Positions 18,501 to 58,952 of a stretch of 64,000 bases of DNA are shown here, piece after piece (position 1 is the first letter of the stretch; each line of letters starts with the position of its first letter). The DNA is from Pyrenula massariospora (Eukaryota > Ascomycota > Eurotiomycetes > Pyrenulales > Pyrenulaceae). Below the pieces are notes generated by a model. That model was not told the DNA's origin, did not search any database, and saw nothing but the letters and a program-made list of their open reading frames with translations. The stretch covers positions 248,001 to 312,000 of the forward strand of contig JAGFMI010000010.1 of the NCBI GenBank assembly GCA_021030905.1, written 5' to 3'. Made by a program: the position numbers and the translations under genes.

Positions 18501-20297
18501 ATTGGTTCATTCACGTCCGCTCCATTCTCAAGCAGCAGCTTCATGGTTCCGAGACGGCGTTCTCTGTCTAGGTTGCGCGCTTTAAGAGCATCGAGTAGAA
18601 ATCCAGAAGCCGTATAACCCTCACATCGAAGGTTAGCATCAGCGGTGCCATCAAGGAGAACCTTCACTGTTTCAATATTCCCCCTCAAAGCTGCTTCAAC
18701 AAGTGGCGTGGATAGCAAGTCTTGACCATATCTTCCACGTACACGCCTAATCTTTGGGATCCCTCTTTCCAGTTCCGAGAACCAACCATGCTGTGGAAAC
18801 TTGCGCGTTTGATTAGGACAGATACCGTGTTGTATGAGCATTTCACATATTTTGTGAGAGTCGTAACATGCTGCTATGATTAAGACATGCTCGCCGTACC
18901 ACCTGATCAACTGCATATCTCTCATTAGGATGCGCATCAACGCTTCGAAAAAGCTTCTCTCTTGAATTATGAAAGCCCAGTCAATCAGCTTGCGCCAAGA
19001 CACTTGTACCGTCGGAGTATCAAGTTGTAAGACAGCTTCCAGGAGATGCCATGGGATCTGCTTGACACACCGACGCATCAACTTGTATATTTCCCAGTCA
19101 TCACCCAAATCATTGGCGAGATAGTACATCACGACGTTGAAGGCGTACAATGGATCGATAAAAGTCGACAAGTTTGAGTCAGATCTAGTGTGTCCTATGT
19201 CTTCGGAAGGTTTTGATGTTGAAAGACCGAGTTCAGCTGCATCTAAAAGCTCAAGCTCTTCTTGGCTCCTCATAGAGTGACGATTTGAACTAGTGAAAGT
19301 AGAATCATTCGAAGGAAATAGTTCGGAAGCATTAGTGTCAGCCACTAATAGCGGTTAGCAACAGTAATGCCAGCTTAGAATTGCACATCAGATCCTACAA
19401 TATTTTCGAAGAGTAACTCGGAGTTGGAAGGTAGGAAGCGGGTCTAATAATGGTGCCCATAGTTCAATAAAGCGCTCGTCGAATATGATAGTCTGACGAG
19501 AGGTCACGGGGAGCTCAATAGCTCTAGAAGTCATAATTGCCCTTATCTTGTCGAACATACTGTGGTAACGGAAAAAGGGCGCAATAGAAAGATTTTGTTC
19601 TTCAATGTTGGAGATAGCTGTAAGATCCGCAGGCGCTTGATATGAGAGCTCCATAGCACCAAATGCATTCAAGTTCGGGTCAGTGAGGATTCGAGCCGCT
19701 TCCTGGGATTGACTAAATTCAGGATTATTGTCGCGGAACAAATTGCCTTCCGGACTTTTTGGCGGTGTCACAATCGAGACGCCCGATGGCAATGGCAAGT
19801 TCCCTGTTCTGTATATTAACCCCCAAGCCTAGTTGGGAAGCAACATAAACAAAGAATCGGGTAAAAAGTCATACGAGGAATTTGGCACCCTCTATGCTTC
19901 TGTGAGTCTCTTCTGATTTCCTTTTTGAGTTTCTCGGGGGAAATGGCAACCCCATTGAAGTACACATCGCTCTTCCGATTTCCACGAGCTGAAAGATGAT
20001 GGTCGATGGCGATCCAGTTTCGAGCCTTCAACTTCTTCTTGAAACCTAGTTCATCTCTCAACCTTGTTTCATATATCGATAGCCTTAGTGTTGTCAGCTA
20101 TTTGGGCTATCTAGATGCAGATACATCTCAAATCGCAAGACTCACGGGATTTTGGGAAAGCCATGCCGACTCTCTGCAATCTGCCTGACCTCACGAAGGG
20201 TCTTTCCTTCGACAAGATATAATTGGTTGAAGAGATCCCGATGCTTTTGCCATAATGAAGCTTGATGTGAGTCTTCAGGCAAGACCGCGAGAGCCAT
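15569..20297 (-). CDS. Clr5-domain ankyrin repeat protein, 1513 aa
   Basis: Four exons (20297-20146, 20083-19875, 19803-19399, 19344-15569) sum to 4542 nt. The first two exons encode a Clr5 domain at about residues 15-75: WQKHRDLFNQLYLVEGKTL and RLRDELGFKKKLKARNW flank intron 1, matching the usual pattern of this fungal N-terminal domain. The long last exon (1258 codons) encodes many ankyrin repeats with LLLxxGADVN or LLLDxGMDPN cores, ending in an acidic tail. Clr5 is thought to be a DNA-binding or adaptor domain; ankyrin repeats bind proteins. The function is not known. The acceptor of intron 2 (19804) was chosen by reading frame; the alternative AG just upstream does not fit. Domain calls are firm and the exact residue count less so. 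Confidence 0.85.
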
Positions 20298-22132: not shown

Positions 22133-24415
22133 CTATACAATTGTGAGCTCTTGCAGCGGTACCTTTTGAAGCCATTCCAAGTCAGCCTCTTCTCCAAGAT
22201 ACATTTCCATTAAGCCAAAGCGCTCGTAGGCACTCGGATCTCTTATCGATCTACACAGGAGGAGGAAGAAAAACTTTGCATGTTTTTTTGTTGGGTCCGA
22301 TTCTCCGACGAAAAGACATGTGATTGGCGAAGACAATGTTGAAACAGACATTACCCTGTGGCTCAACTGTTGGCTGGATGATGCTGTAAAAGGGCTGTTG
22401 CTTTCCAGATTGCGCGCTTGCAAAGGCAAATCAAGACAAACTTGAGCCAAACTGCTACTTATCGGGTACTTGCTTACAGTAAGATTATGGCCATCACTGT
22501 TGAACCTGATTCCATAATTTTGCAAGTAAACGACGCCCGCTTCAAGCTTTGCGTTAAGTTCAAGCTCTATTTGAAGAAGTCGACCTTCCACTCTCAGGAA
22601 TCCGTCTTTCACACGGCCGGTGGGGCTTGGTCCCTCCTTGGTTGTATGCGCTTCCTTTAGGATGATATGCGATCGGAAATAGTGTTCCCCTGAATACATC
22701 AGGATAAACTCAATTGACCCGTCAACACTTGCCCAGCTCCAGCTCGGAGCCCGCCAACGAGGAGGAAGCTTGGTTTCGGGAATCCCTATTTCACTACCAA
22801 ATTTCATGAAGTGTTTTGAATACCATAAGAGGCCGCGTGGTAAGTCATTCAGCCATGATCCTGCAAGATACTCGTCGTCAAGAAGTTTTTGGAATCTGTC
22901 TGCTAGGCCTGATAATGCTGGCAATTTGTCCACAGGCTTAGTCAACTCACGCCGGGAATATTCCATACACAAAGATGACCATGACACATATAGTTGTTCA
23001 CGGCTCATTCTGGTAGTAAATGTCTTTATGTACTTAGAAACCTTGATGAGGGAAGTTTGTTCTTGCAGCAAGTCCTCTGATGTAGTGCCTATGTCCGCTT
23101 TATTTGTGACGTAAGGTCCTGATTGGGTGAAGGTTTGTTGCCTCCTCCATTCGAAACGCCTACCGCTTGCTACAGAACACTCGCATGCATCTGCTGTTGC
23201 ACATTCCCAACGGATCTCTCCATTCTCGAACGCAAGGAGCCGTCGTGAAAGCCTTTCTTCTTGAAGGGCCCAAGCCCGATGCGCCAGAGGTCCTCCAGTC
23301 CACATCGGCCGCACGACGCTTTCTAACTCGTACAGATCGTGCATACCTTCCTGCGCTCGAATATCAAGAATAGAATAGTCTTCCGGGTTAGAACTAATCA
23401 GTTTCCCTACGTAAGGTTGGGGGCGTTCATGTAGAAATCCATCTGCATCAGAGGCGCTAGATGTTGCTGCTATGACGCAGTACGCATCCGAGTAGACAGT
23501 ACACATTTTAGCAGATTCAGCTTTCCAGTCTGATTCGTCATCTTGTATTATACCTTTTAAGATTCAGTGACTTCCTTTTTTAACAATGAAGGGGCTCCTA
23601 CATAAAGCATCAATCCAGAGATAGCGGACCTTGATAATTCTTGCTATAGCGATAGCGTCATGAAAAGTTGGTGGAAGATCTTCAATACTGAAACCCCGCA
23701 TCAAATTTTTGATATTATTCCGATTCGTCACAAAATGCTGCGTCTGACCCCAGCAGTGAGAAAGTGCGATATATTTCTCACTCATTTCTCCTGACTCTAT
23801 CAACCTTGCAATTTTAGGATCCTCTCCCAAGTCTAGAACCCTTGTTGGCAGACGTGATCGTGCAGGTTTTTTGCACATTGGATGAGAATGTTTGTTCTCG
23901 CATTCATTAAGCCAGCGTCGAATCAGAGACATGCAGCCTTCGGACGCAAAGTTTCGTGGATAATTGCTCGCAGGTTGCAAGGACCCCCAAGAATATGTGA
24001 AGTTCTTCTCACTCCGGAGCTCTACCAATCTCCCTCTACCTCCTGTGGTTGTCTCACGTTGAGAGCAATTAAGACGTATATAAGGACTCTTGCGGTCGGA
24101 CCAAAGCACTATAGTGATATCCTCCCATACGTTCTCGGGGATCGGGTAGAGTGCTAGAAATCCACGATAGTATATCGTGCAGATAGAGCATTTCTTCTGC
24201 GAAGCCGCTAGATCCGAAAGTTGCACAAGACGAAAACCAAGACTTCCCTGCTCCTTGATTATACCGTCACACTCAGGGCACATTGGCGCGTGATAATTTT
24301 GTCTGTTCCAACCGTTATCTTCAGAATCGTCTATGCGAATCGTGCTGCTTTGTTCCTTTTCCGCATTTTCGTTGTCAGCCGTTGAGGATCTCTCAGCTTG
24401 CATTATATCCAACAT
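22133..24415 (-). CDS. HET-domain protein, 744 aa
   Basis: Two exons (24415-23602 and 23553-22133) sum to 2235 nt. The 48-nt intron interrupts the HET motif: DALC is completed across the junction to give LWIDALCIIQDDESDW. The HET domain spans roughly residues 210-370, with ALSHCWG at about 217-223, RYLWIDALC at about 265, YSDAYCVIAATSS, and LAHRAWALQEERLSRR. The N-terminal third has paired cysteines (MCPECDG, CSICTIYY) typical of this HET subgroup. HET proteins act in heterokaryon incompatibility and programmed cell death after non-self contact. The gene looks intact. The partner locus is unknown. Confidence 0.9.
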
Positions 24416-25251
24416 TAATCATGTGAGGCCTTTGTCATAAAATTCTAGAACTGTCAGGCTGATTAGGTTAGAGGTCCTGCATCCTAGACATGGCGTCTAT
24501 CACGTACCGGATCGCGTGTCAACGAATGGCTACTGATGCCAAAGCTTCTCAGTGCCAATAATTGGTGCGCTTTGTTTCTTCGTATGATGCTCCGACTGCC
24601 CTACCAAAGCTTACCTAAAAGAAAGCCTCACACAGGTTTCTGTGTTCTGTTTCCCTCTTGGTGGGGTAATCCGTTCAAGTTACACAAAGCCGCAGAATCG
24701 GCTCATGGTTTCTTTTTCTGCGCGTCCAGCCACTTACCTGTTCGATTCGTTGGCTCCGCATGTAGTCAACGCGCCTGCACGTCTGACGCCGTGAGGCTGT
24801 CGCTCATAAAAAAGTGATTTCGTACTGAGCTCATCTTTTCCCGTACGCGCCCCTCAAGACAAGCTTTCGTAAATTCTAATGCCATTACGGACATCTTTCT
24901 TTTTTTCATTGTGACAAGTCCTTAATCTTACTACCGAGATATTTGAGAGGATGGCGCGAACTAGTGATGATGATGGGCATGTACTTGAATCCTCAGGCCC
25001 CGAAGGCGGAATAAAGCCAAGTCAATTGGCCCTAACCATTTTTGGAAGAGGTTTGTCGAGAGGCAGGTTCGATGGGGAGAGCCTAAGCCTCATAGCACTG
25101 CATAAATACGGTATATGATGGAAACTCGATGTGGACTTATAAACACACAAGACTGCTTTTTAATCTTCTTCCAAAACGCCAATCGCTAAAATGATCATTA
25201 GTCATGGCCCACCAAAACACTAGAGCTAATTCCTTAAACCCTCCATTTTCA
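24416..25251. other. Intergenic region between HET and DUF3074 genes
   Basis: The 5' flank of the HET gene and the 3' flank of the DUF3074 gene. A 55-codon ATG frame at about 24952-25119 (+) has no recognisable content. Nothing else is seen. Confidence 0.4.
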
Positions 25252-27597
25252 TCAAGTGTCTCCGCTCCGCCTCATACTCCCACTCCGACTTGTATTCCCC
25301 GCATTACTCCCAAAGCTAATCCCCCTAAGCCTCCCCTGCGCCTTCTCTTCCCCAATCAGCGTCCTTATAGCATCCTTGCTGATGCCCTGTGACCCAGGCC
25401 CACTGCTATTCTCACTATACAGCAAGCTCTCCTCGCTCTTCCCCAACAGCGCCGCCAGCCTCGTATTCTCCCGCTGCAGGTCACCAACCTGTTGCTGCTG
25501 GATCTCATTCTGCTTCCGGAGAAGCTCGAGTTCCGCGCGAGCCTCATCCCGCTCCCGTGTCAGCCGCGTCTTTTCGTCCTTGTCCGCCTGTTTTCTGCGG
25601 CGTTCTTCTGTCTTTCGGCGGTCGCGGCTGCGTTTCCGCGCCAGTTTTTCGACCTCCTTAAAGTGCTTCTCTTCCATTCGCTTCACCTCTCGGTCGTGTT
25701 TCTCCTCGAACCTCTTGAAAGCTTCTTGTTCTTTGAGAGATTGATTTTCTGTCTCCTTGGCGGACTTCTCGCGAGCCGCCGCCAGTTTAGCATCAAGAGC
25801 CTTGCGCCGAGCCGCGATCTTCTCAAGCTCCTTAGAATGATGGTCATTCGTCTCAGAATTTTCAGCATTTGGAATTGCGCCGTTCTTTTTTGGTGAGGAA
25901 TTAGATGAGGAAGAATGAATCGATGCGTTGTCGTCATGGAGTGATTTGAGGTGTGAGTCTGCGCTTGCGAAGGAGTTCGATGATATAGTTGAGGCGGCGT
26001 CAATGTCATTCAACTCGTCCCGGCTACGAGCGGTTGGAGTTCCCGTTCGTGATCCCGTAAGATAGTCTGAGATAGCTTGCGGAGCGTACGAGCCCAAATA
26101 AGAGGACACTCCGGCCATCCACCCTGTTTGTGCTCCTATTCCAGAATCTGGTGGCGCAGATTCAGGGAGAGCACCAGGTAACGGAGGGACCTTGTCCAAT
26201 TCATTTGATGTAGCATGATCATGAATCTTCTGTACAGAGCCATATTGATTTTGGCGGCCCTCGTTAGCGCTCTCTTCACCTATGCCAGCTAGATGACCAT
26301 TGGATTGGAAGCTTTCGAACTTGTCTACGTTCCTGCCAGGATCATCCTGCTTCTTCTCAATCTCTCCCTCGACTTTTCCATCAGGATGGTCCTTCTGACA
26401 AGCCCAATCGAGGAATTTGCTTGCATCTGCAACGATGCTAGACGGTGTTCCTCTTTCGACCATAAATCGAGGAACGCTGCCGCCTGGGTCGCTGCGGGTG
26501 ATCATGATCCACTCGACTGGGTTCCGTTCAGGGTCATCATCTTCAAAATTTGGATTGTCGAAAGCTTCGCCTTTGGCGGATCGTCCTCGCGACTCGGCAA
26601 AAGAGATTGTCGCTCCTCTTCCCCTAGATGTGGATCTTCGTCTGTCGTGTTGATCGTCTGAGAGCGAGTCAGAATGTGCTAGGTGGGATAAATTGTCTGC
26701 GCTACTGTTAGGATGGTTTAAAGGGAGAGTTCTCGTCCTCTCAGCATTTCGAAGCATCACAGTCTTGTCCAATGGTGGAGACTTGCCGCGCAACTTAGTC
26801 AAGTCAATAGATGATTGTGAGCGTGTTGGGCGTCTTGGGACCTCCCGGATAAATTCCACGGATTCATACGAACCTCTAGTAAAGCCATTTCGAGGTTGAG
26901 TGTCTGGATGATCACAAGGCTTGGAGATGATCATATAGTGTCTTGGAGGGCGTTCGATACGTCCTTCTACGGTCTCTTCCTTCATAGCTGACGAAGATGT
27001 AACTAGAAAAGTGACGAAATCTCTTGGAGCTGTGGGACCTGGGAACTGGGCCGACAGATGATATACCTCTACTTTGCCATTCGCAACGGAAATGTTTTCC
27101 ACTCGTCTCTCCCCACCAATTCCGCGTATATTTCCAACGCCTGGTGCTCCTTGGACTTCCATGGACTCTGGAAATTCTCTTTCCAGTCCTTGTTTCCATC
27201 GGGTGAAGCCAAGTCCTTCATGGACGCTCCGCCGGGCGAACCAAGCACCGCGACTATCTTTCCCTGACATTTTGTATACGGACATCCCTAGTGGATTTTC
27301 CTTGGCAGCCAATTTCAGAGGCTTTCCCCACTCTTTCTGTAAAGCAGAATATTCAGGAGCTGGCGGCGCAGAGCGGGCGGAGGAGGATCGCATTTCGGAG
27401 GCTTTCGTGGCAAATGGAGAGTTTGCATCGAATGTAGAGGTGGCTGTGTCTTCTGGTGGAGGAGGTACGGATTCAATAATCTGTTGAGATTGGGCGAAGA
27501 GATTCTGAACATAATCATCCCTTTCCGTGCTTGCTTGGGGAAACTCGCTGAAAGACAAAGGCCCTAGAGATTTCAAAGCAGAGTGTAGAGTAGCCAT
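25252..27597 (-). CDS. DUF3074 (START-like) domain protein with C-terminal coiled coil, 781 aa
   Basis: A single uninterrupted frame from ATG at 27597. Residues about 85-255 match DUF3074, a START-like lipid-binding fold found across fungi (runs GKPLKLAAKENPLGMSVYKM, GAWFARRSVHEGLGF, PRDFVTFLV). A low-complexity Ser/Pro middle part follows. At about residues 600-715 a strongly charged Lys/Glu/Arg helix predicts a long coiled coil (EKHDREVKRMEEKHFKEVEK). The N-terminus is the usual one for the family (MATLHSALKSLGPLSF), which supports the start. A role in lipid sensing or membrane contact is inferred from the fold only. This is a core-type gene rather than an accessory one and helps anchor the region to a normal chromosome. 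Confidence 0.85.
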   Translation of the reverse strand: MATLHSALKSLGPLSFSEFPQASTERDDYVQNLFAQSQQIIESVPPPPEDTATSTFDANSPFATKASEMRSSSARSAPPAPEYSALQKEWGKPLKLAAKENPLGMSVYKMSGKDSRGAWFARRSVHEGLGFTRWKQGLEREFPESMEVQGAPGVGNIRGIGGERRVENISVANGKVEVYHLSAQFPGPTAPRDFVTFLVTSSSAMKEETVEGRIERPPRHYMIISKPCDHPDTQPRNGFTRGSYESVEFIREVPRRPTRSQSSIDLTKLRGKSPPLDKTVMLRNAERTRTLPLNHPNSSADNLSHLAHSDSLSDDQHDRRRSTSRGRGATISFAESRGRSAKGEAFDNPNFEDDDPERNPVEWIMITRSDPGGSVPRFMVERGTPSSIVADASKFLDWACQKDHPDGKVEGEIEKKQDDPGRNVDKFESFQSNGHLAGIGEESANEGRQNQYGSVQKIHDHATSNELDKVPPLPGALPESAPPDSGIGAQTGWMAGVSSYLGSYAPQAISDYLTGSRTGTPTARSRDELNDIDAASTISSNSFASADSHLKSLHDDNASIHSSSSNSSPKKNGAIPNAENSETNDHHSKELEKIAARRKALDAKLAAAREKSAKETENQSLKEQEAFKRFEEKHDREVKRMEEKHFKEVEKLARKRSRDRRKTEERRRKQADKDEKTRLTRERDEARAELELLRKQNEIQQQQVGDLQRENTRLAALLGKSEESLLYSENSSGPGSQGISKDAIRTLIGEEKAQGRLRGISFGSNAGNTSRSGSMRRSGDT

Positions 27598-29121
27598 GAT
27601 GAAGGTAATTGGTGGGGGTCTTCTTCAATCGGTGGAGAGCAGGCGAATCCACGATCCTCTGAGGATTTAATCGATCGGCACCTGGCGGATATGGCATTTG
27701 AAGCCTTATCCAGGAAAAGCGGGGGTTTGGCCACCACGTACTCGAGGTGTTCTTTTCATATTTGAGCACCAAGTAGATTCTGAGGTCTGAAGCAAGAAGT
27801 TGTGGTTTGAGCAAGGGAGATAGTCGACCTAGAATGTTTAGCTGGTGAAACATCTAGCTAACGAAGGTGTTTGCATTGGCTGACAAAGGATCTCATTCTG
27901 GGGTCCAAGTTTAGAGCATTTGATGTCATGATGCCAAGGGATCGGCCCAGAGCTCCAGCGTCTGGGGGCCACGGAGCTTCAAAAGGCGCGGGCCGCGGCT
28001 CTATGGAGTAAATAAACGGCCTCGGCGCATTTTTTTGCCCGTCTAGGTCTGGCTGGCCATAACGATGGCATAACGATGGGGACTCTCAACCATCATCTTA
28101 CCTGTAGGTCTCACTTAGGTTGCGGAGGGCCGCGGGAATCATAACCGATGTGCGCGTCAGTTAGGTGAGAACCACCAAACCAAATAGGTACATGTGACAG
28201 GCTGTGTCGCCGTGTATTAATGATGCTACTTGTACACTTATACAGACAGAATAGCAATGGCAAAGAATTTTCGATTGTTTTCTCGATTATCGACATATAG
28301 TACGAAGCCCCGCTCCGGTGCCAGCATCCTATTCTCATGGTGTAGAGCTTCCTCAGGAACCAGTCCCGGGTATAGGGGATGAACCTATAACCATAACCTG
28401 ACCTCTTCCAAAGCCTAAGTCGTACATCTTTCTCAAAGAAGACCACAGATCCTCCCTCAACGGCCTGCCACGGGCAGACCGCCAATGCGAGACAAGACTT
28501 CCTTCTCTTGCAATTTCTGAGGTCGTGGACATGGTAAGACGAAACCGTAAACATCACAGATGTACACCGTGTCTCGTCCCGTCGTCGTCTCCCATCATTC
28601 ATATATGCCAGCCGATAATCAATATCAGAATGAGTAGACTCGTGAAGTCATTGCGATCCGAGACCAGGTCTAGCTGTGCCTTGTGATGCCCATGGAACTC
28701 CACACGACGAATAGGAAAATAGGCATTCAAATACATACAACCCAGTCCTGCCGCGAGGCAATTGTTCTTTAAGCAATAAGCGGGAGCAATCATATCCGCC
28801 GGGGGGATTGACCCAATGTATACAGCAAATAGCCGGCCCGCTGCTTTTTCAATGCTTCGAAAATGGAGACAAAAGGAAAAATCGGCGCTTGCTAGAACAA
28901 ATCCAAAAGTAAAGGTGAGAAATTAACTATTCCAACAGAGAGGTATCCATGTCGCTAAGTCGAGATCAATGCGCCGTCCGTGATGCCGTAGATGCTAATG
29001 CCTGCATGCGAGTCGTCTGTTTCGTTCTCGCATCTCTCATGAATATATTGCTTAAGACTTGTCGTCGATTCAACAGACAAGGAGCTGAAGTCGAAGGTAG
29101 AAGGTTCAGAAGTTTTCTTCT
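27598..29121. other. Intergenic region of 1.5 kb with one doubtful small frame
   Basis: The 5' flank of the DUF3074 gene and the 3' flank of the Pro-rich gene. A 163-codon frame on the minus strand (28111-28602, ATG start) is rich in Arg, Cys and Tyr with no domain and is not called as a gene. No RNA gene is seen. Confidence 0.4.
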
Positions 29122-46965: not shown

Positions 46966-48288
46966 CTAGAGTCCCCATTCCTCAATAGTAACTGGAGGAA
47001 GATCTGCAGTTCTGTATGATTCACAGAAAAAATCCACCCTCCAGAATTTGTTCCAGGAAATGCTTAGATCACTCACCAAAGATGGCTTAAACGACGCTAA
47101 AATATTGAAATCCGTTCCTGGGACTCGAAAGACAAACGATGAGCATCTTGGAATTTTTTGTGCTACCAACTGTTCGAGAACCACAGGTTTATTGTGATTC
47201 CATGTAACAACTTGAGACTTTGCCTCACCTATTGCGTCGATAAATGATTGATAGTCAGAGATTGTGCACTGGAGGGACATAGCGTCAAGTTTAGACCAGC
47301 CCATGGTATAAAACATGCACGTGAAGTCGTGATGAATCTCTCGTCCATTACTGACGAAGCCAGATATGCATTTGAGCACCAAGGCTACGGAATCAAATCG
47401 AGAGCCCCTGGATACAAAGAAGAGTTGGTCTTCGTCATCGAAACGGCCTGCAGGCCACGCATTGTCAATAGTCATTCCCTGCGAAACCTTGATTTGAAGA
47501 ACATTTGATCGCATTTGAGTCAGGAATGAGTTCATGTTGAAGAGCCAGGGATTGGAGGGTTGTTCCATTTCTGGAAGCTTTGTCAGGAGATACTTGTCAC
47601 CATGGCCCTTGGAGTAGAGATTTTTCGGGACTTCGATGAGATTCCTTGGATCCTCTCTGACAAATTGATCAGGTCCACACTTCCTGAGTCTGATCCCAAG
47701 GGTCTGGCTAGGGGCAAGACAGCAGTCAAGTGGTAAGATATAGCGATATGTCCCTTTCTCGTAGGCATATTCTGAGAGAATCTCGACTTGGGTTTTCACT
47801 CCATTGCTCGTGACTGAAAACTCTTGTAGACTATAGTTTGACTCTCTTGTAAAGAATGTACACCCGGCGAAGGCGAAAGGTGCTTCAGCCAAGACACCTG
47901 AAGCAACGGTATCACCTGGTCCATTAAAAGTTATTGCAGCGGGTGGCAGTCTCCAAGCGAACAGACTGAAGTCAGGCGTGGTCTTAATGATCTCCTCTTG
48001 AAGTCTTCGGAATGCATTCTCCTCTTCGCCGTATATTAAAGGCATATTCACGTCAAATATTCCTAGTAAACAGTAGGCCATGTCTTCGATCCGGGTAGTC
48101 TCCCTAGGTGCTGCCCAAGACATCTTCTGAGCTACAGCTATCAACGAAAGGCTTTGTTCGTGTCGTAGAACTTTTGCGTTGATACCAGTGATTCTCGAGA
48201 GGTCTTCGACAAGATCTCTTTTGGAGCCTCTCGTACTCCAGTGTTGATCGAGAAAGAAGATGTTCCTCGGAGCGATAAGTTCTTGCAT
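46966..48288 (-). pseudogene. C-terminal piece of a HET-E-like gene, 440 codons
   Basis: An open frame that begins at the ATG at 48288 with MQELIAPRNIFFLDQ and runs to 46966. It matches the part of HET-E-type incompatibility proteins that lies just after the RGWTLQEL motif: LSRITGI, MSWAAPRETTRIEDMAYC, LLGIFDVNMPLIYGEEENAF. The HET core that should precede it is absent here; a stop codon lies directly upstream of the ATG. The missing N-terminal part is found on the same strand at 54849-55246, ending at the same codons. This piece has no internal break, so it could be expressed as a shortened protein, but the family makes it a split gene. The 10 bp AGTTCTTGCA (48278-48287) at its edge recur at 54852-54861. 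Confidence 0.75.
48278..48287 (+). repeat. Left copy of a 10-bp direct repeat flanking the inserted segment
   Basis: AGTTCTTGCA lies at the edge of the HET C-terminal piece. The identical string at 54852-54861 lies at the edge of the HET N-terminal piece in the same orientation. This is what a target-site duplication of about 10 bp would look like, though the bases also encode the conserved LQEL motif. Confidence 0.6.
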
Positions 48289-49538
48289 ATCTCAATCCCC
48301 GCCGCTCACAAGCACCCGGAACTTGGGGCCTGGAGCGCAGGAAATGGAGGCTTCTGAGCGAAGTCTGGTGGCAGGGCGCCGTTTTCTGCGTCTTCGATCT
48401 GTCGGCTCACGTGGTCTGGAAGAACAATTCTCCGTGCTCATCCCCCATCGATGGCCCTACGTAACACAACTTTGATTGCCTTACTACTTGATTTATAACT
48501 GGGAGCCTAGAAGCTTTTACCAAAAAGTTGACCTTAGGTCCTACTTTTAAGACTCTCTCTATACCTTTATGGCTCTGAGCGTTACCTCTGACAGAGAAGT
48601 GGTTAAATATGATGGTTTAACTAGTATGAAGAAATCTTTAATGGGTTAGAAGAGGTGCGAGGCTCTATCTCGTATTCTATTCTCGGGTACATGTGTGCGT
48701 TTTCTGTACACGCATGAAGAGTGCAGTGTTCCTATTCATCAATGCGATGTAAGTCTGGAAGGACAGAGAAAACGTCATTTGGCGTATGGTGGTTTATTTT
48801 TGGTAAGTCCTCCCATCATGCACTCCGTCAATCTAGCGAGCAACTATTACAGTAACGCGTCAAAAGTCTCCCTATGGCAAATTTCAAGACACTATCTAAA
48901 TATTTAAAGCTTTCTAAGCTCCATATATACATTCGAAGTGCCAAAAACCTACTGTAAGTTAATAGTCTAACACCTGATTTGGTCCAAGCCTTAATGCCAT
49001 TGTGAAACTATCATCATCGAGACAGTTTCCAACAACAAACCCAACAACTGTTCCATACGTTCTAACCATCACGTTCTGCTTGCACACCGTGGCATCCAAG
49101 GCGGGAAAAAGCTATAAGTCTATGCTGATTTTGTGACATCGATTCTAGTATCCAAAATTACATATCAAAGATCCAACTAGCCAATTCATCCCGTAAGCGA
49201 CGAACCTCACCCACCAACCGATCTTTGAACACCCTAAAGCATCGATGCCGCCTTAGGCATGCGCCTCCTCTCAAATGACCGGATCTCGTTCCAACAGCCT
49301 GATCTCGTTCCAGCAGCCTGATCTTGGCGGCAGCAATGCTTTCCGCACAGTACGAACAGGTATTATTTTTCTTGTTGTACCGGATTGCCTTATTCGGCTT
49401 CAAGGCGGCCCTCACGTCCTCGATATCTCTCGGCTTCTGAGCTAGGGTCCAATGCGAAAATTGGCGCAGGCATCGTAGGCATGGCGGCTTCGTTGTGAAA
49501 CAGACAGTGTCAAGTGTCCAGGTAAAGACATTTGTGGT
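48289..49538. other. Left part of the inserted segment, no firm gene
   Basis: Positions 48490-49150 are AT-rich with no frame above about 70 codons. At 49158-49515 (minus) an open frame of about 118 codons without an ATG holds two CxxC pairs (PPCLRCLRQF, NTCSYCAESI). It could be a remnant of a zinc-binding protein or an exon of an unrecognised gene. Confidence 0.4.
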
Positions 49539-51164
49539 TTATCCGGGCATTGCTCCGTATCCCTGATCTCTGATTAAACGTTTGCACCATTTCGTCGGGC
49601 AAATCTGTGAGTGCTCACTTGGCGGCTCGGGCGCTTTTTTCGGGGCGTCTATGAATGCCTGCAAGGTTTCAATCACGTCTGCGTCATCAAGATTGTCGAG
49701 TGCTCCTCTCGCTTGGACGTCCTCGATCAATCTGTCCACGTCGAGACTGCAGGCCATGACCTCACGTCGGAAGTCATCCCCAAGTCGTAGACCATGAATC
49801 TCCTTTGCTGTCTTGACTAGCCAGGGAAACTCACAGTCTACTTCCCGGAACGGGAGACTGGCCCCGGTGGTTATGGATCCGGTGTCCTCGTCAAAGACGA
49901 TCGACACACATCGTGGGATTCCGGAATGTTGAGGTTCAAGCACTGTCTTTCTAATCTGGAGTTGAGTATTGACCAGATTTTCTAGCAACAGATCAGCGTA
50001 AGTCGGGAGATCACGGACAAAGGTCATACCAAGAAGCGCGGACACTTTTGAAATTCCAGCCGCTGTTCTATGGGTTCGAAAAGCATCGGCCACATCCTCC
50101 TGATGGGTAAGGAAATAGTTTCTGATGACGAGTTCGGTAAAGCTGGCCCCAGGCACCCTGTCAGGTACCGGCGAGGTCGCGATTGGTTGAAACCAGCCTT
50201 CAAACAGACGCCTTGCCAGAGTCGGGTTTTGCGATGGCGGGATACCATCACTCTCCATCTGTCCCAAACTCAAGTGAAGTATGAACGCCACAAATGCGAA
50301 CTCTACCTCAAGTAAAGACTGGCTATTAGAATCAGGAGCCTCGTCATGGGTTTCGAAACGAATCTGATAGCTATCACTCTTGGCCTCAGGATCCCGACGC
50401 AAGCCGTTGCTCTTATAGGTGGACAGGACTGCCAAGACGGGCCCGAGGAAGTCGAAGATATAGTGACGGAGCGACTCCAGCGACTCCCTGAGGATATCTC
50501 CGTGCCAGTCCGTAAATGATTGCAGTCTGACTGCGATCCGTACCTCATGCGCGAGACGCTTAAGCGCCCTGCCGACCTCGTCGGCCCATCGACTATGTAA
50601 AGTTGTTTTGGAGACGGTCTTCAGGAAGGTGCGGAAGTTGTCCCTGACATCAAAAGACGGATTATCCAGGTCGTTGTAAAGCATCTTGCGAGTATTCGTT
50701 CCAGTCTGCTGGCCCAGCGAGCCATTGCTGGATTTTTGTGCGCTTCCCCTGAAGCGGTCACTCTGATATTTGTCAAGAAGGGTGTTGTTGTCATCGCCCG
50801 TACTCATAGGGTCATTCCTGTTATCATCCAGAAGTGGTTTGATGAGGACTTTCATGTTGTCAAGGAATGAGTCGTCAACCTGAAGTGAATTTTCGAGCCA
50901 CTCGCGGGTGCCCTCTTGAAGGGTCTCGCCATTGGCACGAGGGTAGATCCTGGTTGCCGCTAGATAGACGATGCTTAATTTTTGTAGCCCTGTGTTGTGG
51001 TGAGAAAGGCATCAGACACCAAACGGTCTCTCCGACATACCTGACCTATCAAGCATCTCCAATTGATCCTGCGATGAGCACGAGTCATGATTCTGAACCA
51101 AAAATCGGAACAAGGTGCGCAATTCATTGAGATCGGCGCTGGAAGCGGTGAAAAGGTCAGCCAT
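49539..51164 (-). CDS. Unknown protein, 524 aa, inside the inserted segment
   Basis: Two exons (51164-51041 and 50989-49539) sum to 1575 nt. The intron has a consensus GTATGT donor and joins LEMLDRSG to LQKLSIVYLAATRIY in phase, which fixes the ATG at 51164. The protein looks soluble and mostly helical (RSLRFLVQ-like N-terminus, HSRWADEVGRALKRLAHEVR, LLEVEFAFVAFILHLSLGQM), with no signal peptide or membrane segment. It ends with a small Cys-containing tail (ICPTKWCKRLIRDQGYG). I do not recognise the family. It is divergent from the gene at 51737 with 572 bp between the starts. The frame is long and clean, so it is probably a working gene, carried within the segment that splits the HET gene. 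Confidence 0.6.
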
Positions 51165-51736
51165 GATGGATTGCGGTAATAATAGACTGTCATCGCGCAG
51201 GATGCAAGTGAAATCAGAGGTTATTACCTAGAGTCCCTCTGTTCACCGTCATTCAGGCCATACAGGAGTGCATGCAGCCATCCGGACCTCATGTCTCAGG
51301 CCGCTGCGCTTTTTCTTTGTTTTTCTCTCGGCGATGTTTGCGCGCATCTTCCTTCGTCGAGATCGGTGCGAAGAATCAGCGTGCTCTCGGTGAAGCGACG
51401 CCGTACTGCCGTTCATTTTTGCATAATCCGCAGAAAGAGGGCGCCGCTTGAGGGGAATCGCACCTTTGCGACAACGTACAAACGTCGTATTCTATACTTC
51501 GTCGTGGCATTCTGCACATGTGCGTCAGCGGCAAGGTCAGGGTGAATTGAAGATGGCCGGCATGGAGCTGGCGGCGGCGATGAGATCTACAAAGTACCCG
51601 AACGCTGCTAACTAGGATAGGCATAGCGTCAGACAGGTCACGTGTGACTTCCCCTCCGCGAACAAAAATCCCACTCACGGAACGCACCAACTAGGCTTGC
51701 TACCCAGCCTTCCAATCAAGCCGAGAACAGGTCGGT
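51165..51736. promoter_or_regulatory. Shared 5' region of the unrecognised divergent pair
   Basis: 572 bp separate the start codons of the two unknown genes. Short frames here overlap on both strands and look random. It should hold both promoters. Confidence 0.45.
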
Positions 51737-53107
51737 ATGCAAGCTGCTCATGATGGTCAACATCACAACAGTCAGCGATGGTCCGACAAATGGTCAAATG
51801 CGGTGCTTGCGTACCTGCCCTGGAAGACATGGTGGTCAGAACACCGCAATCTTATCGCATTGAATCAAATCCGTGGGGTCTGGCCATCAGCTCAAAGCAA
51901 CCAATATGCCGTCCGAATTCCGGGCGCCGCTACGTATTCCAGGGACGGCGATGAGTGGAGAGAATCCACTAATTGCCGCGCTTTCAATCAAAATGGCCGG
52001 ATACGGCCGTTCGCCGAAAGCAGCCAACACATTGTCTGCAGTCCGGACACAACCGCGTCTTCCGAAAACAGCGATTCCGAGCCTTTATCATATGGCCTCC
52101 AGGCAAATCAGTCCAAGGCCATCAAAGCCTCCCCGCGATCAGCTACGACTATAAAAGCCATGAACTCTCCCCGTGGGTCAAATGAAATTTCCAGCAATTG
52201 TAGTATGGAGTCTCTCGCTGAAACAAAGGGAAGAAATGAGGACAACGTGCAACCTCAAGAGTCTTTATTGCAGATGGAGACGGGAATTACCAACCCAAAG
52301 AGCCTCAAGCCTCCTGATATCGATACACCCTCTATCGCCGATCTCAAAGAACGGTTAAAAACCGTCGATATGTTGGGAATGGGCCCCAATTATCTTGAAG
52401 TCTGCAGACTGATGTACAAGCGCAAGGAGGGGGATTATATTCCCCTGGGGACCTACAAAGGACACGAATTAGCGTTAAAGCCTGGATCCAAAAGAATGAT
52501 TCCAGAAATAGCTCCACACAATCTCATCGTGCATTACGATATAGCCTCGATCGAAACGGACATTTATATGGGCGTGCGATATGACTCTGCTCAAGAAGAC
52601 GGGAAGAAGGAATTGATGTTCTGGCAATTGGGTTAGCATTTTTCCGCCATTCAAGACCCTTTATGACCAACTAACAGGCTTCTCTCAGGGAGGATGATGT
52701 CCTCGGTCGACAGAGATCTTCATTCAAGAACACCGGACAAGATTCGCTGGAAAAAGACTGGCTGCGTCCTTTGCTTAGAGCTTTCCGCGTCGGGATCAGT
52801 GGGCGACTTCTACATGTTACCTAAACTTTACACGGCGAGTCGGGGCGAACCGTTATTTGATGACGAGATAGTTGACCAATGCCGGCTCTGTGGCGAAGAG
52901 CCTCCATTTACTGTGGCGCGGGTCAGGGGCGAAGATTATGGCCTTTTCAAAGAAACCTGGGCGAGGACCGGGCACGCGGACGAGCAGATTTTGCTGGATG
53001 TGTTGTCAAAGGAGAGACCGGAGGTTGTTGAGGTAGGCGTGACCAAGGCTGTACCAGACCGAACGGCGGAGCGCTTTGTTGCGCTGTTCCCGGTAGAAGA
53101 GGGTTAG
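51737..53107 (+). CDS. Unknown protein with C-terminal CxxC pairs, 437 aa
   Basis: Two exons (51737-52631 and 52689-53107) sum to 1314 nt. The intron has a branch site (ACTAAC) shortly before its CAG acceptor. The N-terminal 200 residues are polar and low in complexity. From about residue 200 a folded part follows (SIADLKERLKTVDMLG, LEVCRLMYKRKEGDYIPLGT, NLIVHYDIASIETDIYMGV). The C-terminal exon has two Cys pairs (CVLCLELS and CRLCGEEPP), a likely zinc site. No signal peptide is seen. I do not recognise the family. It faces away from the gene at 49539-51164. The hAT remnant begins a few hundred bases downstream. Confidence 0.55.
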
Positions 53108-53398
53108 AAGCTAGATTCAATCAATTCATCAATCGTCTCGGCCTCTGTAACTCGGTCATCTTCCATCGGGCTGAGGGACGACTAAAAACCAAGGGCCAGT
53201 GGCCTACGGAGTTCTCGATTTTCAACTTATCATCGTGCGGTCCCGTCACACACCTCAGCTCCCTGATCTAGGCCGCCCAAGGAGGTCCCGGAAGCGGGTA
53301 CAAATTGGTGGCGCATGGATAACAAAAGAGAGTTCCAGTGGCGATTCTTTTGGGTACGTCAACCCTTACGGTTCGTCAACGTCAAATTTTAGGCACGT

Positions 53399-54340
53399 GT
53401 GCAAATAGCTTCAGCAGTGGGGGGCTGTGGGCGAACTGTGGGAAGAGTTTATCATGGCCGTGGTAGGGGGCAAGACCGTGAAGGCAATTTTGAGTACGTC
53501 CCCTACGAGTTCGCGTTCTCGGTCACCAAACAGCAGAGGCTTGAGATGTTCTGCTTTACACACAAGAAGAAAATCAGCGACGACGTGCTCACCGACATCG
53601 ATTGGATCGAGCTCGATGACGTTCGACGAATTTTGAAGCCTCTGCACCAAGTTACGATCCATCTCGAAGGCCATGAATCACAGGGTCACCATGGCATTAT
53701 TTGGGAAGCTTTGCCTGCTTACGAAGCACTTTTACAGCATCTTGAAGATATAAAGGCCGAGTTCGTTGACTTCTCTTTTCTCTCAGCTTCAAATAACTTC
53801 GCGTGGACGAAGCTTGACCATTGTTATGACGTCCTCGACCAATCACCGATTTACACAGCCGCTTTGACCCTCCATCCTCAACTCCGACTTCAATATTTTG
53901 AAGATGCTTGGTCAACCGAGCTCAAAGAAAGCCACCTCCAGAAGGCCAGATCGAGCGTCATCGAGATCTGGGATAGCTACAGGCCTAGCTTGAAGGTCGA
54001 CGGATCGACAACAGAAAAGAAGGACTTTCTGACAACGTACATAGATCCATTTGGATCTCAAGGTCGACGTCAAGATGCCTACAAGGCCTACTGCGAAGGA
54101 ACACAGGCAGATCTTGAAGAAATGACGATCTTTGATTGGTGGAAAGCACAGGCATCAATAACTCCCGAATTGGCGTCGATGGCTTTTGATATACTCTCTT
54201 GCCCAGTCATGAGAGCAGAACCAGAGCGAATATTTAGCAATGTCAAGCACATAATTCGGCCTACATGAGGAAGACTTAGAGATGATATTGTTGAAGTAAC
54301 AGCATGCCTAGGCAATTGGCTACACAGAAGCCTGTATTGA
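53399..54340 (+). pseudogene. hAT transposase, C-terminal part
   Basis: The frame encodes the RNase H-like C-terminal half and the hAT dimerisation region: IDWIELDDVRRILKPLHQVT, HLEGHES, AWTKLDHCYDVLDQSPIYTA, then TIFDWWKAQASITPELASMA and MRAEPERIFSNVKHIIRPT. A TGA at 54266-54268 interrupts the dimerisation region. In the same frame 23 more residues follow (GRLRDDIVEVTACLGNWLHR) to a second stop at 54338, which matches the normal end of the family. The TGA could be a C-to-T change of CGA. With no N-terminal half or BED finger seen, it is not active. Confidence 0.8.
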
Positions 54341-54369
54341 AGATCTTCAACACCAAAATTAGCTATACA

Positions 54370-54500
54370 ACAATGCCAAAAACGTTCGTACCGTTCCCGG
54401 AACGGTTCCGGGAGTTCTGTCCGTCCCGTTCGAGTATTCGATGTAGTTCCGTACGTTCCAGTCATCAGATGGATGTACGTTCCGTACGGAAGCCCTGGGA
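54370..54500. repeat. Palindrome-rich subterminal region of the hAT element
   Basis: Several short palindromes built from GTTCCG and CGGAAC are packed here, for example CCGTTCCCGGAACGG near 54391 and TTCCGTACGGAA near 54479. This is the usual look of the transposase-binding zone near the end of fungal hAT elements. Confidence 0.65.
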
Positions 54501-54775
54501 CTGCTCGAAGGTACAACTAGCAAGCCAGGCTAGCATTTGCACCATTGACGTCTGCCTCCTCCATCTTCTGCATGCGGGAGGGCTGCGAGTTTACAGCCTC
54601 CAGGTTTGGACCCTAAACAATGCGAGAAGTGTTTAAATGCCAATTAAAGTAATGTTCAGAGAAGCACATTTCCCTAAAGCTATCATCACTGTTCTTCTTG
54701 CGATGTACCATCTAGCGGGTCAGCGGTTCCAAAAATACTTAGAAGCGGGGAGGGACGCTAACCGCTTCCGCGCGA

Positions 54776-55246
54776 TTAATCGTCCGGACATGGAGTGCGG
54801 CCGAGGACGCTAAACCTTTCCTGGCCGGGACCGCGCTTCCCGCAGGCCTGGAGTTCTTGCAGAGTCCATCCACGGGTAAACCACCGACAGTTCTTCAAGG
54901 CGGAGTCTAATGGTGCGGATGCAGGTAGATCTGCGAGGAAGGCGTAACAAATTTCTGAGCACTGGTACCATCTGTACATGGAATTAATGGCTTCACTTAA
55001 TTCGGCGCTGCTGGACTTGTCGATACAGCAAGTATCAATCCATACGTATGCAAATCCTGCTTTGGATGCAATCTGGCAGGTCATTTCAATCTTTCGATAT
55101 CCCTTCTTCTTTTTACATGATGCATCGCTCATGTCTTTGAATGACACCTCTTCCTCCTCCCAAGTGTGAGAGGGAATTGCATACCTTGGTATGTTTCTCC
55201 CAACAAACTCTTCGAAAAGGTATGTATTAGTGTTGATAAGTCTCAT
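54776..55246 (-). pseudogene. N-terminal piece of a HET-E-like gene
   Basis: An ATG frame begins with MRLINTNTYLFEEFVG and carries the N-terminal part of a HET domain: YAIPSHTW, FAYVWIDTCCIDKSSSAELS, NSMYRWYQCSEICYAFLAD, and CRWFTRGWTLQEL. Homology stops at LQEL (about 54849). The next 24 codons (QACGKRGPGQ and on) are unlike any HET protein and end at 54776. The C-terminal part that should follow (IAPRN...) is found at 46966-48288 in the same orientation. Together they cover a normal HET-E-type layout without overlap beyond the QEL codons. As it stands it would make a HET domain lacking its last third. Confidence 0.75.
54852..54861 (+). repeat. Right copy of the 10-bp direct repeat
   Basis: AGTTCTTGCA, identical to 48278-48287 and in the same orientation, at the break of the HET N-terminal piece. 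Confidence 0.6.
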
Positions 55247-56337
55247 TGTTATGGCTTAGACAGAGCCTAGTATTGCGGGTTTCTTTAGTCACACGACTCA
55301 CTCTTCAGACTTCGAATGGTAAACAGCTAGATTTTCATCTCCGGAACTGAAGAATTGTACCTGACCGTCCTTTGGTGGCCCCGATGCGATTTTGGAAATC
55401 AGCGATCACTTCTGCCGACACTCCATTGTGGTTCTGGTTTATGGAAAGACATCGTGTCCTCAGTCCAATGTCAGAGATATGGAAGGTAGCCTGGCGAAGC
55501 GAGATAGTGGCAGAGAGCAAGTCAGTCTGTCGGGAAGAAAGGAGGAGTTGAAACTTGAGTCTCTAAATCCACCAAACTGTCAAGGTTCTCCACTGAGGAG
55601 AGATCATGAATTCTGATTTCAATTTCCTAGGCTTATCAAATCTTTGCGTAAAGCGCAGGTAAGCCTATCATGAACACATCGACCTATGACCCGGCGTTTG
55701 TTTGGCCAACTACCTATTTTTCGCTGGAGTTGGGCTGAAACGAGGCCGAGCCGGCTAATTATCGGGATGAGAAGTGCCACGACTCACGACTTCTATCCAC
55801 TTTTACAATCCTCCAAATCCCAACAACTCATCTTCTAGCTTCATCACCTTAAGAGAATTGCAGGTGATACTTAAGTCCAGATAAAGTCATTTCAGCTATC
55901 AGAGGCCTGCGTACAGTTTTCCCTGCTTGCTGAAATAAAATCTCTTCCCGCTATTTCGGTGGGGACCGGTTGGTATTTGGTACCAAAGCAAGAAGGGATC
56001 CTGATAATACAATCACAGTCTAATCGCACGTTCAAGGGTCCGTGTTGCTGTGGTTAATCAGCCTTAAGTATATATCGCCGTAATTCTTAGCTACTGGCTC
56101 GATCCTAGGATATTATCCCCGAAATTTGTGGACTGGGAGAGCGGGTTTTACAGCGAGGTCAAAAGCGGCGACTAGCATTTATTTGGGGCGAGACACAAAA
56201 GCACAAACGGCTACTTTCAGTAATCCTTCTATCTAGTGTCGCGTATTCTGACTGTTGACGGGTTACATGACCGAAACTTGCTACAACCGCGGTCCAAGAT
56301 CAGTATGACAGAGCAGCTGACCTTCGTCATCAGGAAA
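55247..56337. other. Intergenic region of 1.1 kb, no gene seen
   Basis: The 5' flank of the HET N-terminal piece and the 3' flank of the next HET gene. Frames of about 60-75 codons have no recognisable content. Confidence 0.45.
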
Positions 56338-58622
56338 TTAATACAGGATAATTTCCCCATATGCACACGTAGCTTCGTCCCAGCTTTCCCGCTCCCCAAC
56401 GATGGTCAGGGGACAGACAGAAACGAATTGGAACCCGATCTCACTCCGTGTTTTTGCGCCTGCATCACTACCACACAGTATATATGGGCGCAGGATCACT
56501 GCTTCATCTAGCCCATCGAGAAGAAAGACCCAGTCCAACTCAGCCACAGGCGACCTCGGGTACGCATCGTACTGACAATGTGCCCGCAGAGATTTCGGTC
56601 TTATATCAGGTGGTGCTTTACCATCACTCTGGGGATTTGCTTCTGATGATGGTATGTTATCGGTCGCGCAGTGGCACGCTGACTGGTCGTGCAGCAGTGT
56701 TTGGAGCAGCAAGACTGGCATACTACTCCGAGGTAAGTTCTTCGCTGTCAGGGTATCCCAAAGTTTAAAAGCTTGTGGTGCTGATTGTCGATCCGTCGGG
56801 CTGCTCTGCTTCAAGGCCTTCTGCAACGCACACTGTGGTAGCTTTATGAATGTATCTAATTTTCTATACTCTGCTTCCGCAGCTGGATCCCCTTGAATGT
56901 AGCCTTCCTCGGCCGTGAAACTACGTACCCTAGCTAAAGCACAGCCTCTAAGAATCAATCGTTGGCTAAAGTCTTGGACGGATTGTGCCTTGGGAGGAAT
57001 GTTCCCTCGCGCTTCCCACATTTGGCGATTTGAGTTGGAAGGGGGTGATCTGGCTTTTTGTTGTGCGCCTTGCGCTCGCCAATCACACACCCAAGTCGGC
57101 AAGTTCTCGTTGGAAGAGGTTTGGTCTGACACGTGTGGAATATTTGACAGTATTGCAGAGCCGTTTGATGTAGTCCGGCTCGGTCTTTGTGGAGCCACTC
57201 TATCTTCAGAGTCATGGTATGTCGACCTGGACTGAGGCGTTGACAGTGGAGGATCACGTTCACGATTACGGAGTGGGATCCATTGACCCTCCTTCATGAG
57301 CACCCTGTCGCCGTTGTGACTTGAATGCCTTCCTGGCCAATCAAGCGAAGTACAGGTACCAGTCGCGTATTTGAGAAATTCCAAATTCTTTGCGTTATTC
57401 ACGTAAGCTCTTACTACCCTGACAAAAGTCCTTCGCATATCGAGGTGATAGTCGGGTCTGAGCTCTACATACGATGTTGAGGTTAAGCGCGGACTAGTCA
57501 AAGCGTATAATTTGTCTCTTGGATCGCTCGCATCTCTGGGCCAGGCGTCCACGAGTAAATCTATGAGAGGGGCCTTGTTTATCGCCGGGACGTGTTCAGC
57601 CTCGGGGCTTGAGGATAGAAGTCGCGGCCGCCCTAACCGCCTAATGATCGGCCTGAGGAGCCTGAGGTGGTGGCCACGACTTCTGTCCTCAGGTCTCGCC
57701 CGCCTTCTTGACCGGAATTGAGGCTTGACAGAGGCGCTAGGGATCTTGAACATGAACGCTTGCTCTCTGAGAAATGCTCGTAAGCCAGAAAAGCTTTGCA
57801 TGAAGGTTCCTGTGTCGCTGAAGGCTTGTAGAGACTTGAGGAATGTGTTCCATGGCATGAAGGAGTCTCCGCAGATGGCGATGGCGGCCATAGCTAATCG
57901 TATTTCCTGATAGGTCTTAGTTGGAAGGTATGCAGTTAGCAGGCTTCTTGTAAACACGGTCAATCGCTGTTAAGAAATGTTTTCGAGCTTCTGAATAAGT
58001 ATGGGACACTAGGTATTAGACATACCCATGCCCTACGGAACCATGGCCTCCGGATGAGATCGTTGATGCCCATACCTAAACTATTGTTTTGTCCCTCCAT
58101 GAAGCTATCAAACTCAGTCTCATATTCCTCACTGTCAAATTGTCCAGTAAACGAGAAGCTCTGAAGTAAAGTCCAAAATCTATTGTGACCTTCCAGGGAA
58201 GCCCCAAGGTAAACGAATATATGATCTGCCGACTGATAAATATCGCCCATCAAAGACACTTGGTAGTTCCTCTCCATCAAATTATTTTGGTCAATGCACA
58301 ATGCATCTACCCATATCCGCTCCCACGGATAAACTTTCCAGATGACCGAGAGTGCATCTCTAGTATTGTGGGTGACAGTTCGTGTTACTTTGTCGCAGGT
58401 CACAGCCGTTGTAGAAGTCAGATCTCCGCAAACGTAGGACAGCGCAGCGTAAGGCTGCGTTCCTCTTTGTGCTTCTTCTAGCTTGATGATCCTCGTTCGG
58501 CAAGCCAGAGCACGGTTTGCCTGTGGCTGCGCGGTGTCGTACTCAAGAATTCGAATTTGACCATCTGCCAGGCTACGTTCAGGGCTCGGTCTATCATTCA
58601 CTGCGCTTATTAGTCCAAGCAA
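56338..58622 (-). CDS. HET-domain protein, about 740 aa, 5' end unresolved
   Basis: Two main exons (up to 58026 and 57966-56338) are joined across a 59-nt intron with a GTATGT donor. The HET domain is in the first: YAALSYVCGD, RIWVDALCIDQNNLMERNYQ, IYQSADHIFVYLG, and RPWFRRAW at the exon end. The usual ALSYVWGD has Cys in place of Trp. No in-frame ATG opens the first exon: the frame starts at a TTG (58622) after an upstream stop. A good branch-acceptor pair (CTAATAAGCGCAG) ends at 58601, so a short 5' exon upstream is likely but I could not find it. The C-terminal part (WPRDASDPRDKLYAL and on) is typical of this HET subgroup. The role is probably in incompatibility cell death. Confidence 0.75.
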
Positions 58623-58952
58623 GCATCATTATCGTAGCTTGGCATGCATAGACCGTGTATCACCGTATGTATATCCAGACATTGCCCTATGAAGAGGGCA
58701 TAATAGACGTTGTAGGTACGCAAGTATTTTACGTTAAGATATGGTGGCCCCGCATTGCAAAGCCAGAGATTCAACCCTCTAGAAATAGACAGTCTTGCGT
58801 GACTGTGAACATGCTCCATCCGCCACGTGCAGAAAAACGTCCCCTCTTTAGAAATATTGCAATTGAATTCACTGATGGCACTTATCATGAGAAGCATCGC
58901 CCGCCAATGATTTTCGACATACGAGTGCCTCACGCCATCCCTCTCGCGAGCA
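58623..58952. other. Short intergenic region, likely missing first exon of HET gene
   Basis: 330 bp between the HET gene (-) and the stop of the flavin monooxygenase gene (-). It probably holds the promoter and a short first exon of the HET gene. Confidence 0.4.

Follow-up and report, generated by a model that had tools for sequence, protein, structure and literature searches.

Within the window, i.e., the whole 64,000-nt stretch of DNA analysed here, a fungal self-recognition gene of the HET family lies in two pieces and was probably interrupted by one insertion of 6,564 bp that duplicated 10 bp of its target. We put the probability of this reading at roughly 0.78. The features concerned are listed in Table 1.

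Table 1. Annotated features of the window, ordered by position (position 1 is the first base of the window).
Feature	Position	Strand	Description
NACHT-ankyrin region	4060-9025		immunity-type
Long ankyrin gene	15569-19354		immunity-type
Further HET gene	22133-24418		over two frames
C piece of the HET gene	46966-48288	minus	junction-made ATG to stop, 440 codons including that ATG; matches in the fungal bin
Direct repeat, copy 1	48278-48287	none	exact 10 bp; putative target-site duplication
Insert	48288-54851	none	6,564 bp, without terminal inverted repeats
Gene-like region	49158-51163	minus	490-aa frame, likely intron before it, stop at 49539-49541, then 126-aa frame in the same frame
Gene-like region	51737-53107	plus	298-codon and 146-aa frames; coding-like base composition
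hAT transposase relic	53393-54268	plus	C-terminal dimerisation region PF05699, E 1.9e-12 (53393-54265), then in-frame stop
Likely right end of the hAT relic, CAGGGCTTCC... / CAGGGCTTCCGTACGGAAC	54479-54497	minus	single match in the window when up to 3 mismatches are allowed
Direct repeat, copy 2	54852-54861	none	exact 10 bp; putative target-site duplication
N piece of the HET gene	54852-55246	minus	ATG to ...RGWTLQEL, 131 complete codons and part of codon 132; PF06985
Further HET gene	56338-58625		over two frames

The two pieces, their order and the way they break off can be read directly from the DNA. On the minus strand, the N piece starts with the ATG at 55246, reads to ...RGWTLQEL and gives way to unrelated DNA from 54851 on. 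The C piece follows on unrelated DNA, starting at 48288 as (M)QELIAPRN..., and ends with the stop codon at 46966-46968. Order, strand and frame of both pieces are those of one gene, i.e., the DNA reads as the original prediction had claimed, which had also located the breaks correctly. Its limits of the pieces need a small correction: positions 54849-54851, which it had counted to the N piece, as well as base 48288 belong to the insert. Since this base provides the A of the C piece's first ATG, that start codon was made by the junction.

With regard to known families, a Pfam profile search finds the HET domain PF06985 in the N piece (E 1.1e-12, 48.9 bits vs. a cut-off of 22.5), with the best stretch covering profile positions 1-88 of 146. 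For the C piece, neither Pfam (at E 0.1) nor NCBIfam (at E 1) gives a match. Neither piece has a significant match in a search of solved structures, and the structure predicted for the C piece, from an alignment of three rows, has a mean pLDDT of 29.9.

Each break carries one copy of TGCAAGAACT, and there is no other in the window, such that the identical 10 bp reported for both edges are indeed found there and nowhere else. For AGTTCTTGCA, exactly two copies are observed in the window with 0.15 expected, and none of 100 shuffles contained at least two. Neither flanking base is repeated at the two copies; the repeat is therefore exactly 10 bp long and the insert 6,564 bp. Ten identical bases were found in 33 of 2,000,000 random position pairs of the window, a value that overstates the case, since two truncated paralogues could share most of the 10 bp anyway. 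The repeat lies wholly within the conserved LQEL codons; compared with it, six related genes have 1, 1, 1, 2, 2 and 1 changed positions out of 10. That is, the 10-bp identity alone proves little. The argument for one gene rests instead on the reciprocal break: the homology of the N piece stops where that of the C piece starts, collinear and in the same orientation, which bears out the claim that both pieces are broken at the same codons.

The related genes stem from a search of prokaryotic and viral collections. A degenerate DNA pattern for GWTLQEL-x-AP led to three contigs, all from one bin labelled Deltaproteobacteria. The corresponding NYXK01 records (L001-L003, G001) are titled Deltaproteobacteria bacterium isolate CPC1 and contain much fungal DNA. 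In the bin, PF06985 matches 41 stretches and the Zn2Cys6 cluster PF00172 matches 38, whereas each is found in 0/14 control genomes, and the HET gene of L001 has a spliceosomal-type intron of 80 bp (GTAAGT...TAG, the choice of intron being ours). This DNA is therefore fungal.

When the pieces are searched separately in the bin, 7 stretches in 5 genes match the N piece, and six genes match the C piece at one place each; five genes match both. In all five, the break motif is followed directly by the C part with nothing in between, reading WTLQEL-LAP, WTLQEL-LAP and WTLQEL-IAP in three of them. The other two, both on contig C52, are decayed (TFQKL-ITP and TLQKL-ITL, with stops). The L001 gene has the highest summed N score and is also joint best for the C piece; from the first L of LQEL to the stop it counts 432 codons vs. 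440 here. In L003 and in the C243 gene, the C alignment starts 33 and 12 residues further on and in another frame, perhaps owing to an intron or to a frameshift. The C piece is alignable up to residue 190 of 441 at most; beyond this point the agreement is one of length only. A further point against one gene is that the N piece alone also weakly matches the HET loci L012, L014 and L018 (E 3e-5 to 9e-4). Judging from these alignments, uninterrupted genes of this kind exist, and the pieces of the window are complementary parts of one kind of HET gene. Within this one distant bin, the two pieces are not each nearest to a different full-length HET gene. Sharing the same five genes, in which their parts are contiguous, they agree with the predicted large insertion into one HET gene with a target duplication of about 10 bp.

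The pieces might also be what is left of two distinct HET paralogues that were each cut short at WTLQEL, in which case the 10 bp would be conserved codons and no duplication. We consider this unlikely, though less so than the further alternatives below. It would fit with the motif being present in the six related genes with 1-2 of 10 bases changed, and with the presence of more HET genes in the window. It would also fit with the sixth gene matched by the C piece (G001 C9:90081, i.e., L036:13937): its C part starts with LQELVAP, exactly at the residue where the gene of the window is cut, and no convincing N part is found in the surrounding 19.9 kb (one 20-residue match, E 0.19). Thus, genes consisting of the C part only may exist. 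On the other hand, two losses at exactly the same codons would be required, in collinear pieces that are each complete on their other side; the exact 10-mer is found in 0/6 related genes; and the N and C pieces match the same five genes.

The C part of C9:90081 stands directly behind an acceptor-like TTTGTAG and an in-frame stop, and the locus may represent a rearranged gene or an exon boundary. As a candidate for a second split HET gene it was rejected: its upstream DNA compared with the insert edge scores 14.4 (random mean 12.7, 95% value 15.6), and the 19.9 kb around it contain no convincing N piece.

A misassembly, in which the assembler made both junctions, is very improbable in our view. 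For a join made by an assembler, an overlap of 10 bp would be short, and the error would have to have occurred twice at the same codons.

We now turn to the DNA between the two pieces. Wholly within the insert, there are 12 stop-to-stop frames of at least 90 aa, all of which were scanned against Pfam. Two more frames straddle the edges, namely 48104-48406, which was left out of the scan, and 54776-55255, the N piece's own frame. PF05699 in the hAT transposase relic is the one match above cut-off among the 12 frames. Hermes transposase chains match this relic at E 0.008 to 0.017; no other part of a hAT transposase and no left end were found. Ends like CAGGGCTTCC are typical of hAT elements, and the likely right end stops 354 bp inside the right edge of the insert.

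The two gene-like regions are divergent and show no Pfam family above cut-off. The 490-aa frame has a coding-like base composition and a mean pLDDT of 36.4 in structure prediction. Directly past its stop, the 126-aa frame (49158-49541) contains CxxC pairs, as if one gene had gained a stop. In the other region, a 57-bp intron possibly joins the 298-codon and 146-aa frames, which is our own reading. No significant match among solved structures was found for the two insert frames tried. Likewise, neither these two frames nor the hAT frame has a match in the fungal bin, which holds two other hAT dimerisation regions. Given that even the acyl-CoA dehydrogenase-like frame of the window is without a match there, the bin is distant or incomplete and such absences say little. 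The collection of viral contigs yielded no relative for the hAT frame, the C piece, the two largest insert frames or the HET motif pattern, and the collection of genome contigs none for the C piece. Rfam and tRNA scans found nothing in the window.

The edges of the insert were compared with each other in segments of 60-600 bp. For inverted repeats, scores of 7.0, 8.7, 10.0 and 12.1 face random means of 6.7, 8.8, 10.9 and 12.4, and no edge-to-edge pairing is found among the inverted pairs listed (25 of 48). For direct repeats, the scores are 8.0, 8.5, 10.5 and 14.9, i.e., low for the shorter segments; the score for 600 bp is as high as the 95% value obtained with random pairs, in which one segment was reversed. 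The insert shares no repeat of at least 30 nt with DNA elsewhere in the window. It does not have the make-up of any recognisable transposon: terminal inverted repeats are lacking, and it contains two gene-like regions together with a truncated relic of a hAT element. Since inverted repeats are absent from the edges, no known transposase is implicated.

We also checked individual element classes. A hAT element as agent is rejected given the likely right end 354 bp inside the edge, the absence of a left end in the window, the edges without inverted repeats and a duplication of exactly 10 bp vs. the 8 bp described for hAT in PMC6710886. For MULEs, target duplications of 8-10 bp are given in PMC5225508, a range that includes the 10 bp observed here. 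Against a MULE stand the absence of long terminal inverted repeats and of a MULE transposase in 12/12 insert frames of at least 90 aa, the latter being absent from non-autonomous elements as well. An LTR retrotransposon is not supported, as the edges show no terminal direct repeats above random, nor is a non-LTR retrotransposon (LINE), given the absence of a reverse transcriptase from 12/12 insert frames and of an A or T run from either edge.

The insert as a whole is without RIP signature, with a TpA/ApT of 0.65 and a second index of 1.22 (window means 0.72 and 1.29). The RIP cut-offs are passed by 6 of the 127 blocks of 500 bp in the window, two of them in the insert (48501 and 53001).

In the preferred reading, the HET gene extends on the minus strand from 55246 to 46966, and the interruption would have occurred within its HET domain, where a staggered break would have left the 10-bp duplications. 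Two origins of the inserted DNA appear jointly likeliest: repair of the break may have captured a chromosomal fragment with two genes and an old hAT relic, or the DNA may be a mobile element whose ends are not recognisable. As it now stands, the hAT relic is cargo rather than the agent. We regard it as improbable that the insert represents a mobile unit of an undescribed fungal kind. Such a unit would lack inverted repeats, make a 10-bp duplication, carry the two divergent genes as machinery or cargo, and have inserted into an allorecognition-type gene, which could change the fusion compatibility of its carrier.

The cut falls at residues 129-132, numbered from the ATG of the N piece. The strongly conserved stretch runs on in the C piece to ...SLFAW, i.e., residue 113 of the C frame or 240 of the continuous protein. 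According to PMC12881547, a HET domain of about 220-240 aa is sufficient for cell death on overexpression, and PMC10890737 gives residues 1-240 as HET in BH1 of Podospora. By alignment, the other ~108 residues of the domain sit in the C piece. A cut at residues 129-132 within a death domain of ~240 residues means that the N piece is not a complete HET core. Hence, the HET assignment of the N piece in the original prediction stands and its completeness does not. The idea that each half could act by itself, one as a HET core and the other as a C-terminal region, is not supported.

That both pieces remain open is correct: no stop interrupts the N piece (131 complete codons and the split codon 132) or the 440 codons of the C piece. 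Continued into the insert, the N frame gains 24 residues, such that its 156-aa product would be a truncated HET domain of 132 residues with a foreign tail. The C piece would have lost the gene's own start and promoter, and the junction-made ATG would begin in mid-domain. Loss of function of the HET gene is therefore likely. In a model with each transition twice as likely as each transversion and indels ignored, the probability that neither piece has gained a stop is 0.05 once neutral divergence reaches 0.039 per site. By this measure the insertion is recent, provided that the pieces are not under selection.

Could both pieces be expressed and work jointly as a two-part HET protein? Their open frames and the start of the C piece with the junction-made ATG would allow for it. 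However, the cut lies inside the death domain, and open frames are expected after a recent event anyway (see the stop-free probability above). Two working halves are unlikely, and their joint action as one protein is in our estimation highly improbable.

For the interrupted gene, related cases can be compared. A two-part HET-family pseudogene is already published: NWDp3 of Podospora anserina, as described in PMC1805685, has a stand-alone HET domain 60 kb away. In both cases, a HET-family gene is proposed to be split into two separated pieces, with a relic of a transposable element beside one. For NWDp3, the same source proposes a 60-kb inversion with opposite orientation and a cut between HET and the rest, whereas here we find an insertion, the same orientation and a cut inside HET. 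The account in PMC10890737 describes Bh (het-B) of P. anserina as a non-NLR HET protein of 622-638 aa, similar in protein size and N-terminal position of the HET domain to the gene studied here; its HET residues 1-240 match the end of our conserved stretch. Bh is also described as having HET-associated and lectin-like domains. Histone-carrying hAT elements of Pseudocercospora fijiensis (PMC6710886) resemble the insert in combining non-transposon gene sequence and hAT sequence in a fungal insertion of several kb. As described there, these elements end in 20-bp terminal inverted repeats and are flanked by 8-bp duplications; the insert, in contrast, lacks inverted repeats at its edges, and its truncated hAT part lies in the interior.

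Beside the interrupted gene, the window contains the immunity-type genes and further HET genes of Table 1, where the two-frame layout of the latter is perhaps due to introns. The HET and NACHT-ankyrin genes and the likely introns point to a fungal origin of the window. A 790-aa frame at 25252-27624 carries DUF3074 (PF11274, E 2e-55).

According to PMC10890737, no other Pfam domain varies as much in copy number as HET across the taxa considered there, and most HET-domain genes are not known incompatibility genes. Since broken HET-family genes are known in fungi, we consider the event fairly ordinary, with an insert of unusual composition. As it stands, the locus is another broken member of a large, fast-changing gene family, and the nature of the insert is a question of some interest. 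If the insertion varies among strains, it would provide a natural knock-out of one HET gene and with it a simple test of the gene's effect on fusion compatibility, and it would reveal which DNA is mobile in this fungus despite lacking the usual ends of a transposon.
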